Assembly: GCA_009694475.1 (NCBI GenBank)
Contig: SHUX01000006.1
Span: forward strand, 1 to 39,971
Length of the DNA stretch: 39,971 nt
Direction of reading: 5' to 3'
DNA from: Thermoleophilia bacterium
Lineage (GTDB): Bacteria > Actinomycetota > Thermoleophilia > Gaiellales > F1-60-MAGs149
Positions 27,277 through 31,306 of this stretch are shown here, piece by piece; within the stretch, counting starts at the first letter, position 1; each line of letters starts with the position of its first letter. A model generated the notes under the pieces. That model did no database searches and was not told where the DNA came from. It was given only the letters and a program-made list of their open reading frames with translations. Both the position numbers and the translations under genes were made by a program.

Positions 27277-27317
27277 CTAAATGTCCGGAAGGGGCCAAAC
27301 CCCTTTCGAACATTTAG
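27277..27317. terminator. Bidirectional hairpin terminator between ddl and the pseudokinase gene
   Basis: CTAAATGT (27277-27284) pairs with ACATTTAG (27310-27317). The inner arms CGGAAGGGG and CCCCTTTCG pair with one G-T, after a single C-A mismatch, and the loop is CCAAA (27295-27299). In all about 18 base pairs close a five-base loop. The outer AAAT/ATTT parts give T-rich tails in both directions, as expected for two convergent genes. The stop codon of the minus-strand gene (27314-27316) lies inside the right arm. Confidence 0.88.
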
Positions 27318-28735
27318 GCCCCCCGTGGCACGCCGACGACTCGAATGTCGTTGATGCGCAGCACGTAGGCCCCGCTCTCTGCTGGCAGCCGATTAATCCA
27401 GACCAGCACCGTCCTGACGGGAGCACGGTGGCGGACCCGGAGCACTGCCTGTTCGCGCCGCAGCGTGACGGGCTCGGTCAGAGTGGTCCAGCCCCGCGGT
27501 GCCGTTGCCGGCTCGTCGCCGCGGACCGCGTAGAGCGTGACCGTCGCACCCACGGGTGCGGTGCGCAGCACGAGGCGCGTGACCCGACTTGGCAACTCGA
27601 GCCGAAGGGCAAGACCGACACCACCCTTGTTGCCGAACGTCGTGCTCTTGTAGACCTCTGTCGACCAACCCGTTTTCGGTGAGCGGTCGATCGCGAGCCG
27701 CACATCCGCACTGTTTTCTTGGCGATCGCCAGCCGGGTCGAGGGCAGTAATACCCAAGACCCGAAGCGGCCGCGGCGTCCGGTCCGCCCCCCTCGGCTCC
27801 ATCGCAGTCGACGTCGTTGCCACTTGCTCTGTCGTCATCTCGGCCCGAATCGTCGCCGGTACCGTGGTGACAGGCCCGGGTAGACCCGTCGTGACCGCAC
27901 GCTGATCCACATTGCGCCGGTCGGCGATGCCCACAGCCACGACAATCGCCAGCACCACAACGACGATCACTAAGGCACCAACGAGCATCTTGAGCCCACG
28001 GTTGCGGTGCTCGACCGGCTCGCGCGCGGGTGTCTCGACCAGAGCAAACGGCTCCCAGTCCACGGAGCCCGTCGCCGGCTGGTACCCATCGGCGATCCGC
28101 CGCAAAGCATCGCAAGCACTCGCGGCCGACGGTGGGTTGATTGACGCCATGCTCTGCAACAGGCCGGCAAAACGCGGTAGGAGACCGGGGACCTCGAGCA
28201 GGTTGGCATCGTCCGAGATCGCGAGCACCTCACGCAGGGTCGCCGCGAGCGCGCGCACGTCATCGTCGGGTTGGTCGGCTGGTCGCGCCAATCCGGCCGT
28301 CGCTAGGTCTTCAAGCCGTGGCGGTCCAGTCTCGTCCAGCGTCAGCGCGTCGAGACCGACCACTCCCTGCACTAGGCCGCGTTCGTGCAGCGTCGCGAGC
28401 GCGTCGGCGATTGCCGCGCCGAGTGCGGCCGCGTCGGCTCCCGTCAGCTGGCCCCGAGACGCCAAGCGCAGCCGTGCCGTCTGCCCCGCGCGAGCGGGTG
28501 TCACGACGTAGCGCGTGTCACCGTCGCTACCGTGATCCAAGATCACGGGCAATGACGGATGGCGCACAGCGACCAGTGCCGCGAGCGTGGCGTCGGTCTG
28601 TGGCTGCTGATCAAGCAGGGACAGAACCACCGCGCCACCACTAACGGCGTCGCGCCCTCGCCAAACCGCACGCCCCGGCCCCGGAGCCTCTGGCACCTCC
28701 AGCGTGTAGCGGCGTGCTATGACCCGACTGCTCAC
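27314..28735 (-). CDS. Pseudokinase with membrane helix and extracytoplasmic sugar-binding-like domain (MviN C-terminal type)
   Basis: The start GTG 28735 (SSRVIARRYTLEV) follows a -10 element by seven bases; the frame beyond it overlaps the dcd promoter. The 473-residue protein has a kinase fold (about 8-245) whose catalytic residues are lost. The VAIK lysine is Ser (AVVLSLLD). The HRD loop reads LVQGVVGLDALTL, and DFG is replaced in RLEDLATAGLAR. One membrane helix follows (MLVGALVIVVVVLAIVVAVG). The outer C-terminal domain has VRLAIDRSPKTGWSTEVY, FGNKGGVGLALRL and VLVWINRL, the discoidin/galactose-binding-like pattern seen at the C-terminus of mycobacterial MviN. There, the pseudokinase is phosphorylated by PknB and binds FhaA. 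Here the MurJ-like flippase part is absent. It converges on the fhaA-pknB-ddl cluster. Confidence 0.85.
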   Translation of the reverse strand: MSSRVIARRYTLEVPEAPGPGRAVWRGRDAVSGGAVVLSLLDQQPQTDATLAALVAVRHPSLPVILDHGSDGDTRYVVTPARAGQTARLRLASRGQLTGADAAALGAAIADALATLHERGLVQGVVGLDALTLDETGPPRLEDLATAGLARPADQPDDDVRALAATLREVLAISDDANLLEVPGLLPRFAGLLQSMASINPPSAASACDALRRIADGYQPATGSVDWEPFALVETPAREPVEHRNRGLKMLVGALVIVVVVLAIVVAVGIADRRNVDQRAVTTGLPGPVTTVPATIRAEMTTEQVATTSTAMEPRGADRTPRPLRVLGITALDPAGDRQENSADVRLAIDRSPKTGWSTEVYKSTTFGNKGGVGLALRLELPSRVTRLVLRTAPVGATVTLYAVRGDEPATAPRGWTTLTEPVTLRREQAVLRVRHRAPVRTVLVWINRLPAESGAYVLRINDIRVVGVPRGA

Positions 28736-28742
28736 ACGCCGC

Positions 28743-28748
28743 AGCGTA
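28743..28748 (-). promoter_or_regulatory. -10 element TACGCT (minus strand), leaderless start at 28735
   Basis: On the minus strand TACGCT is followed by seven bases and the GTG at 28735. This supports that start over upstream in-frame codons. Confidence 0.55.
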
Positions 28749-28799
28749 CTGCACTGCGCTGGCACCGGCCGTCCCCCAGGCCTGCCAAACTGACGCGAG

Positions 28800-29363
28800 A
28801 TGGTTCTCTCTGACCGTGGAATTCGTGCCGCCCTTGCGGCAGGGCGCATTGCGCTCGATCCGTTCGACGAGGCGCTGATTCAGCCTGCCAGCGTGGACGT
28901 CCGCTGCGATCGGCGCTTTCGTGTCTTTCGCAACAGCCGCTACGGCCACATCGACGTCAAAGAAGAGCAGGCGGAACTGACCGAACTGATCGAGATTACG
29001 GACGGCGGCCCTTTCATTCTGCACCCGGGTGAGTTCGTGCTCGGGGCCACGCTCGAGCGCGTCACTCTCGGCGACGATATCGTCTCGCGTCTCGAGGGCA
29101 AGAGCTCGCTTGGTCGGCTTGGTCTTCAGGTCCACTCGACGGCGGGCTTTATCGATCCTGGCTTCGATGGCCACGTCACGCTCGAACTTGCTAACGTCGC
29201 GAATCTGCCGATCACGCTTTACCCGGAGATGAAGATCGGCCAGTTGTCGTTTCTCAATCTTGACGGCCCGGCCGAGCATCCGTACGGCTCGGGTGCACTC
29301 GGCTCGAAGTACCAAGGCCAGGTTGGACCGACGCCGAGCGCGTACTGGAAAAACTTCCAATAA
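28800..29363 (+). CDS. dcd: dCTP deaminase, probably bifunctional dCTP deaminase/dUTPase
   Basis: The 187-residue product has the dUTPase-fold motifs [19 protein letters not shown], the catalytic [21 protein letters not shown] (read in pieces), [15 protein letters not shown] with the catalytic Glu, and the C-terminal [16 protein letters not shown] that closes over the nucleotide. The C-terminal form matches actinobacterial enzymes that convert dCTP straight to dUMP, avoiding free dUTP. The length is normal. CAAACT (28786-28791), eight bases before the ATG, is a weak -10 candidate. It is divergent from the pseudokinase gene, with 64 bases between starts. Confidence 0.94.
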
Positions 29364-29383
29364 CGCCCGTCCGACCCCGCTGG

Positions 29384-29389
29384 TACCTT
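29384..29389 (+). promoter_or_regulatory. Possible -10 element (TACCTT) for the 29395-29592 RNA
   Basis: TACCTT fits the TANNNT pattern and would start transcription around 29395, just before the 5' arm of the long-range helix of the predicted RNA. No good -35 hexamer is visible. Confidence 0.4.
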
Positions 29390-29394
29390 GCCGC

Positions 29395-29592
29395 TACCGC
29401 AGAAGGGGGGTGGTCCGTTCTTGAGTAGCGACCGTACGGCAAGTGGAGGTCGGCGCACGTAAGGGCGCTCCCCTGAACCGACAGGGAGTCGTCTCGCCAG
29501 CGTTGGGGCAGCGGCACAATGCCGCGGCGCACCTTACGTATGACCAGCGTTCGACCGGAAGGGCCGGGTGGGCAACCATCCGGCCCTTCTTC
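29395..29592 (+). ncRNA. Predicted structured RNA of unknown class (riboswitch, attenuator or small RNA)
   Basis: No protein frame is convincing in the 251 bases between dcd and the next gene. The stretch folds into several strong helices. Helix A is 29402-29414 with 29575-29589 (13 pairs, one G-T, a two-base bulge). A small stem is CGACC 29429-29433 with GGTCG 29448-29452. Helix B is 29457-29468 with 29527-29539 (12 pairs, one bulged A). Two hairpins lie inside helix B: CCCTG/CAGGG (29471-29486, loop of six) and GCGGCA/TGCCGC (29511-29525, loop of three). A terminator stem at 29558-29567/29580-29589 uses the same 3' arm as helix A, so the two exclude each other. It does not match tmRNA, RNase P or SRP RNA motifs I know. 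A 6S-like RNA is possible, but the branched inside is unlike it. Confidence 0.6.
29558..29589 (+). terminator. Intrinsic terminator hairpin
   Basis: GAAGGGCCGG (29558-29567) pairs perfectly with CCGGCCCTTC (29580-29589), with an extra G-T at 29568/29579 and a loop of about ten bases, followed by TTCTTCGTT-type sequence. It would end transcripts from the dcd side or the predicted RNA before the next gene. Confidence 0.8.
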
Positions 29593-29614: not shown

Positions 29615-31306
29615 ATGCGACGTCTCGAGCCGCTCCTCGTGCTGCTCGGGTACGCCGTCAGCTCGGTCGTGCTGATCGGTCGCTTCGTGCTGCGAGCACC
29701 ACACGATGCGGTCGTCGGTAGTTTCGGTGCCGACCAGGGCTTCTTCGCCTGGTCGCTGGTGCACTGGGTAGAGGTTCTGGCCGGCAACCAGGCGCCCTTT
29801 CTGACCGACCGCATTGACGCCCCGATGGGATTTAACCTTGCCTGGGCGACCACGATCCCCGGCCCCGCACTCCTGTTGGCGCCCCTGACCGCTCTGGCCG
29901 GCCCGCTCGTCACCTACAACGTGTTGGCAATTCTTGCCCCTGCTCTGGCTGCCTGGTCGGCCTATCTGCTCTGCCGTCACATCACGCAGGACTCGCTGGC
30001 CGCGATCATAGGTGGCTGGATCTTCGGCTTCTCGTCGTACGTCCTTGGCGAGACCCTCAACCACCTCAACCTCGCCTTGGTGGCGGTCCTGCCACTGATC
30101 GTGCTGGTCGTCATTCGCCTCGTCGACCAGTCGCTGCGCCCGAGGCGCGGTGCCGTGACGTTGGCCGGGCTGATCGCCCTGCAGTTCCTGATCTTTACGG
30201 AGGTTGCGGCGACCGCAACGGTGATCGGCTGCATCGCGCTGCTCGCCGCCATCGTGATTGGTCCGAGCGAACTCCGCCTGCGGATCGTGCGAGTCCTTCC
30301 ATGGATCGCGGCCGGCTACGCCCTCGCGATCGCACTCGTCTCGCCGCTCTTGATTGCCGCATTCCTGCATCCGAATCCGATCGACGATCGGATTCGCCCC
30401 GACCTCTATCCGCTCGACCTGAAGAACCTCGTCGTGCCGACGGTCATTACGTGGGTCGGCGGTGCGCGCTTTCAGGCCGACTCGTTGCAGTTTGTCGGCA
30501 ACCTCACCGAGCAGTTGGCGTACCTCGGCCCCGTGCTGATCTTGGTGGCGCTGGGCGGCATCTGGCGCTGGCGTTACGAGCGGTTTGTTTGGGTGGTCGT
30601 CTTCACCACTGTCGCTGCGATTGTCCTCTCGTTTGGTGAGCACCTGACCATCAGCGGCGATCCCTGGTGGAGCATGCCGTGGCAGGTCGTTGCGCGTCTG
30701 CCACTGATCCAACTCGCCCTACCAACGCGCATTGTTGTCTATGTGTGGCTTGGGATTGCCCTGCTTGGCTCGCTGTTTGTAACGCGGCGCCGTGGTGATC
30801 TCTTGCCTTGGTTCGTCGCGCGCCTTGGTCTCGTCGTGGTCGCGCTGATCTGCCTCTTACCCACACCGCGGGCCGAGCTCTGGCGCACGGACCTACAGAC
30901 GCCAGCCGGCATCGAGAGCGGGGTAGCAACGGCGGTGATCCCCCCCGATGCGGTGGTATTGATCTTGCCGTACTCGTTCCGTGGCAACGGCATGTACTGG
31001 CAGTCGCTCGCCACGATGCGCTACCGCATGGCGGGTGGCTATAGCGCTGCGGCGATCCCGCTGGGCTACTCGGAGTACCCGGTGGTAGCCTGGTTTTACA
31101 ACGACCAGCTGCCCGCAAACCCACGCCAAGAACTGCTGCGCTACCTCGCCTTCACCGGCACGTCGTGGGTTCTGGTCGATGCGCGAGCGCCGGGGCCCTG
31201 GGCGCAATTCTTGCGCGAGGCCGGGGGTGTTCGGTCCGAGGTTGGGGGCGTCGTACGTTATCGCTTCGACCCCGCGGTCGTACGGGCGCAGGTCCACGGC
31301 GCCTGA
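29615..31306 (+). CDS. Polytopic membrane protein, GT-C glycosyltransferase-like
   Basis: The 563-residue protein starts at ATG 29615 (RRLEPLLVLLGYAVSSVV follows); codons between 29519 and 29615 read as Arg/Pro-rich RNA-region sequence and are not counted. There are about eleven to twelve hydrophobic helices. After the first helix lies an acidic loop (GSFGADQGFFAWSLVHW) and later PMGFNLAW, the arrangement of GT-C enzymes that use polyprenyl-phosphate sugars at the outer face of the membrane. The last 150 residues form a mostly extracytoplasmic domain (VLILPYSFRGNGMYWQSLATMRYRMAGGY, in pieces), resembling YfhO/PMT-like families. Donor and acceptor are unknown. Confidence 0.75.
   Translation: MRRLEPLLVLLGYAVSSVVLIGRFVLRAPHDAVVGSFGADQGFFAWSLVHWVEVLAGNQAPFLTDRIDAPMGFNLAWATTIPGPALLLAPLTALAGPLVTYNVLAILAPALAAWSAYLLCRHITQDSLAAIIGGWIFGFSSYVLGETLNHLNLALVAVLPLIVLVVIRLVDQSLRPRRGAVTLAGLIALQFLIFTEVAATATVIGCIALLAAIVIGPSELRLRIVRVLPWIAAGYALAIALVSPLLIAAFLHPNPIDDRIRPDLYPLDLKNLVVPTVITWVGGARFQADSLQFVGNLTEQLAYLGPVLILVALGGIWRWRYERFVWVVVFTTVAAIVLSFGEHLTISGDPWWSMPWQVVARLPLIQLALPTRIVVYVWLGIALLGSLFVTRRRGDLLPWFVARLGLVVVALICLLPTPRAELWRTDLQTPAGIESGVATAVIPPDAVVLILPYSFRGNGMYWQSLATMRYRMAGGYSAAAIPLGYSEYPVVAWFYNDQLPANPRQELLRYLAFTGTSWVLVDARAPGPWAQFLREAGGVRSEVGGVVRYRFDPAVVRAQVHGA

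Follow-up and report, generated by a model that had tools for sequence, protein, structure and literature searches.

A structured RNA gene downstream of dcd

The window, i.e. the whole stretch of 39,971 nt that was analysed, carries a structured RNA between dcd and a gene for a membrane-type protein. The RNA spans 29396..29592 (+), with a predicted 5′ end at A29396, where conservation sets in sharply in alignments of homologues, and a 3′ end past a terminator. Upstream of dcd lies a 511-aa ORF (27314-28849, minus strand); neither its product nor the downstream membrane-type protein (29615-31306, plus strand) has a Pfam match at E 0.001.

The segment 29395-29600 folds at −103.3 kcal/mol, against −86.2 ± 4.5 kcal/mol for 200 dinucleotide shuffles (z = −3.85), none of which folds as well. 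An earlier note on this DNA had claimed strong pairing here, which is confirmed, and so is its 12-pair helix (29457-29468/29527-29539), present in the minimum-energy fold and covarying in relatives. At the 5′ end, the consensus fold has an ACCGC/GUGGU hairpin (29396-29400/29410-29414; 29396..29414, +), almost invariant and kept in nearly all rows of the alignment; the Shine-Dalgarno region lies partly in its loop and partly next to it. A variable inner domain with small hairpins (29468..29527, +) is delimited by fold and alignment. The terminator proposed earlier is a real hairpin, but the ten pairs assigned to it were too few: the predicted intrinsic terminator (29558..29589, +) has 14 pairs (arms 29558-29571/29576-29589), a GCAA loop and a weak U-tract. 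A hairpin is kept at this position in relatives, with altered sequence.

Just upstream of the RNA, a candidate extended −10 promoter, TGGTACCTT (29381..29389, +), follows the pattern TGnTAnnnT in a 16-row alignment. Among 98 homologues, 71 have TAnnnT upstream of the conserved 5′ end, 3-18 nt away, and 16 have the full TGnTAnnnT. The element TGGTACCTT, the terminator and the convergent neighbours found at most loci would fit an independent transcription unit, as predicted from DNA.

The 16S rRNA complement, the short ORF and the helices over its end

The 5′ region contains a 16-nt complement of the 3′ end of 16S rRNA, Shine-Dalgarno included (29401..29416, +), which the earlier note overlooked. 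It pairs 16/16 with the 16S tail GGCTGGATCACCTCCTTTCT, as read from the relative G020, and is the sole such place in a scan of both strands of the window at a step of 2. Pairing is 16/16 in 92 of the 98 homologues, and 1562 of the 1568 cells are paired. Opposite C there is always G, opposite U either A or G, and nearly every substitution keeps the pairing; the model that located the homologues selects for similarity in this segment, not for the pattern of allowed changes. By this comparison, the constraint on the 5′ end of the RNA is base pairing with the 16S rRNA 3′ end.

The region had been described as having no good frame. It does hold one, an ORF of 13 codons with a TTG start and a TAA stop (MSSDRTASGGRRT; 29421..29462, +) that is conserved throughout the phylum in start, frame and stop. 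The ORF was examined at 99 loci, and one of them, L174, a false match in a coding-like region, was excluded, leaving the 98 homologues. In all 98 an ORF terminates at the same point of the structure; its length is mostly 10-15 codons (one was counted as 8). An NTG start at the right distance is found in the ORF frame of 92, against 4 and 0 in the control frames, which are the fair comparison given a parser that sought such an ORF; in the remaining six the best start is only ATT or ATC. The start in the window is UUG, preceded by a strong Shine-Dalgarno, and several members of the genus offer only CUG. Stops are UAG in 80 homologues, UAA in 9 and UGA in 9, so that a stop codon is retained whichever of the three triplets spells it. 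A second GGAGGU (29445..29450, +) lies within the ORF, at a distance of 9 nt from the stop codon; in 97 of the 98 a GAGGU precedes the stop by 9 or 10 nt, and L066 has UAGGU. This motif is read in frames that differ by lineage, as SGG in the order of the window and in family f6 and as EV elsewhere; therefore, the peptide varies from one lineage to another.

The end of the ORF is taken into two helices. In P0, the GGU and the last codons (29448..29456, +) pair with a strand that ends in ACC before the terminator (29547..29556, +; placed by L001 and covariation). Among 71 homologues in which the partner site was fixed by the linker motif alone, the P0 duplex reaches −15.6 kcal/mol with its own strand versus −9.4 kcal/mol with a foreign one. 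Positions 3-8 are paired in 93-100% of cases with the own partner versus 61-75% with a foreign one, and four Watson-Crick types, or nearly four, occur at each of positions 4, 5, 6 and 8. The window copy stands outside these 71; its linker is off pattern and its P0 was located by duplex search. In P1, the strand that holds the stop codon (29457..29467, +) pairs with 29528..29539 (+; A29531 bulged), as seen in the fold and in covariation, with −13.0 kcal/mol for own versus −8.2 kcal/mol for foreign strands in the 71 homologues. Because the sequences behind both helices are related, the values lack independence, but swapping strands between relatives lessens the contrast and does not enlarge it. 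Counted with our own scripts rather than R-scape, this covariation marks P0 and P1 as conserved helices that take in the last codons and the stop. A hairpin around the start codon, H1 (29415-29418/29436-29439), is inconspicuous in the swap test because its sequence hardly varies.

A further pairing concerns the tetranucleotide GUCC, which recurs in the 3′ hairpin loop of homologues outside the order (e.g. L144, L167 and L104). The loop could pair with a GGAC in the ORF, itself also able to pair with a 5′ GUCC, and these alternative pairings are a possible switch.

Distribution and kinship with Ms_IGR-5

By DNA search, each of the 12 other genomes of the genus has the RNA, and it also turns up in other families. 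R1, a covariance model built on 16 sequences from the order, matches 112 of 129 genomes of the order, including 42 of the 43 good ones, almost always in single copy, and gives weak but systematic matches through the class. R2, which models sequence alone over the first ∼73 nt, matches 162 of the 216 good genomes in the class and, in a phylum sample, 131 of 390; the weakest of these matches may include false ones like L174. Of two families of the same class, f5 has no match to R1 or R2 in the genomes listed and f7 almost none; judging from these searches, the RNA has been lost or has diverged in both. A plasmid blastn search gave no matches.

No Rfam family is found in the window at gathering thresholds. 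Up to E = 10, two matches fall in the region, the best being PtaRNA1 with 19.6 bits versus a cut-off of 47; PtaRNA1, mir-935, CC3552 and similar weak matches were rejected as chance level. The actinobacterial sRNA family Ms_IGR-5 (RF02471) gives nothing up to E = 10 on the window copy, below its cut-off of 45 bits, and nothing in the genome of the window; the control genome of Corynebacterium glutamicum is likewise without a match. Because the RF02471 score test fails, the window RNA is not termed a member of the Rfam family.

The same model exceeds its cut-off at 11 loci of the phylum, with 49.9-182 bits (182, 161.6, 137.9 down to 49.9), and bridging loci follow at 25-40 bits (39.5, 36.8 and 36.2, then L101 with 30 and L104 with 25.8). 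The series grades down to the class of the window, and its top loci are those already matched by R2. In the same-class genomes G240, G157 and G235, the RF02471 matches have the same 5′ ends as the R1 and R2 matches. Conversely, R1, which contains no member of other classes, places most of 39 phylum loci correctly (best E = 1.9e-7). It finds RF02471-positive loci at the same place, namely L167 (182 bits to RF02471) at E = 2.4e-5, L147 at 5.4e-4 and L144 at 5.6e-4. The R1 cross-matches, the RF02471 matches within the class and a shared anatomy all point to common descent with accepted RF02471 members. From the chain of RF02471 scores and the cross-class matches of R1 it follows that, at the level of sequence comparison, the window RNA is a divergent homologue of Ms_IGR-5 beyond the reach of the Rfam model.

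Ms_IGR-5, named from Mycobacterium smegmatis, shares with the window RNA a 5′ start of the GAAAGGAGGUGGUCC type, a short ORF that stops after GAGGUG, the P0 and P1 helices, the linker, the terminator and a free-standing locus. The window copy differs in that RF02471 does not match it, in the reading frame of GGAGGU and in its inner domain. In the Rfam structure of Ms_IGR-5, as seen on L167, L168 and L151, other bases are paired and the 3′ strand of P0 is left unpaired although it covaries with the ORF end, which suggests that this structure needs revision. Ribosomes leave footprints on homologues of Ms_IGR-5 in M. abscessus and M. smegmatis (PMC4974804); RNA-seq supports the RNA in S. lividans (PMC8079986), S. 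avermitilis has it as a free sRNA unit (PMC8780764), and in M. smegmatis a transcript overlaps IGR-5 (PMC10454040). The Rfam entry is an sRNA gene, and the open-access literature yielded no function for it.

A resemblance of another kind links the RNA to CC2171 (RF01867), a Caulobacter sRNA whose consensus holds GAAAGGAGGUGAUCC, a full complement of the 16S tail near the 5′ end, as here. RF01867 gives only weak matches at homologue loci (L071:1994-2182 on the minus strand, L016:1460-1535, L070, L101 and L155), the best being 26.5 bits at L071 versus a cut-off of 75, and none is listed for the window. Common ancestry or a shared ORF is unsupported, and CC2171 may be an analogous RNA in Alphaproteobacteria.

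Probable ribosome engagement and competing readings

Comparison of the homologues supports the 16S pairing potential, the ORF, the helices and the terminator, and the RNA is probably a ribosome-engaging RNA rather than a riboswitch for the next gene. In the reading that we favour, with a probability of about one half, it is a mini-mRNA or sRNA homologous to Ms_IGR-5, whose fold is opened by translation of its own ORF. The long 16S pairing would capture 30S subunits. For the steps after binding, including a hold at the stop codon, we infer the following course. The ribosome would translate about a dozen codons, open P0 and reach the stop in P1. With the stop in the A site, the P-site codon lies 6-7 nt past the second GGAGGU, which could then pair with the same 16S tail and so keep the ribosome in place. 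In this way translation would set the fold of the RNA, and with it stability, ribosome hold or partner binding. It would be the act of translation that matters and not the peptide sequence, since start, stop and GAGGU persist across lineages whose peptides differ. The two GGAGGU motifs may instead have other partners, and ribosome footprints on a structured RNA are no proof of translation.

It is possible, though doubtful, that the RNA is a plain base-pairing or dual-function sRNA, in which the main work falls to an unpaired stretch that acts on mRNAs, with the ORF as a side function or a control of turnover. The free-standing gene with its promoter-like element and terminator suits such an RNA, as do conserved stretches, among them the linker around AAUCCA that joins P1 to P0. 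Constraint is, however, strongest in the ORF frame, the ORF-end helices and the segment that pairs with 16S rRNA, and not in a seed outside them. A mini-mRNA whose functional part is the short peptide of about 10-15 aa is unlikely. Peptide ends do share T-x-E-V-x-x-[RGS] in much of the phylum, and S-G-G is shared in the order; this likeness is mostly due to the nucleotide motif, and, with the shift of the GAGGU frame, the peptides of the order differ at that point from those of other classes.

The earlier note had preferred a cis-acting attenuator or riboswitch that turns on the downstream membrane-protein gene, which is now very improbable. The next gene in the window does lie on the same strand just past the terminator, and the proposed 13-pair helix A, between 29402-29414 and the 3′ arm of the terminator, can be drawn there as a duplex of −18.9 kcal/mol, but it is absent from the minimum-energy fold. 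Outside the genus it fades to −9 to −12 kcal/mol (L014, L016, L070 and L101), leaving no conserved antiterminator; the terminator-like hairpin downstream is kept. The 5′ arm of helix A is conserved for another reason, the complementarity to 16S rRNA. Synteny shows no fixed position upstream of a same-strand gene to be regulated. In the order, the RNA gene sits after a suf cluster and an O-methyltransferase gene or after dcd, and at the loci examined in families f8, f10 and f11 after gyrA-like genes; a rough gene call puts the next gene on the opposite strand (convergent) in 18 of 23 loci, and its identity varies by lineage. Neighbours that vary by lineage and are mostly convergent thus exclude a cis-regulator of one gene. 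The comparisons instead mark a free-standing, single-copy small RNA gene; the description as an unclassified structured RNA, with a free small RNA as fallback, is supported.

A divergent housekeeping RNA (6S or tmRNA) is hardly conceivable: near universality and single copy in the order are as expected of such RNAs, but the genome of the window has a tmRNA (G000:C35, 165 bits) and a 6S-like RNA (G000:C78, 45 bits) at separate loci, and no tRNA or tmRNA gene was found in the window. The 6S-like locus scores 45.0 bits versus a cut-off of 46.4, which its relatives elsewhere exceed, and its presence excludes the divergent 6S RNA offered as an example in the earlier note. The window RNA resembles 6S RNA (RF00013) in size and as a single-copy free-standing gene, and differs in giving no match to that model. 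tmRNA (RF00023) is a structured RNA with a short ORF ending in a stop inside the fold, as here; the window RNA gives no match to its model, is without a detectable tRNA-like domain and has its own Shine-Dalgarno.

For the widespread RF02471 family, the ribosome-engaging reading starts from what is new here, the 16S pairing, the ORF with its second GAGGU and the ORF-end helices in 98 homologues. The family gains a conserved ORF, a complement of the 16S tail and two covarying helices that its translation must open. Its range now takes in orders that the Rfam model fails to detect, and its function becomes directly testable in laboratory strains. More tentatively, these RNAs could form a class of actinobacterial ribosome-capturing regulatory RNAs, in which a 30S subunit docks via the whole free 16S tail, is led through a dozen codons to a stop codon that lies within a helix, and is held at that point by a second Shine-Dalgarno. 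If ribosome capture is indeed their role, the RNA would sense or store free ribosomes.
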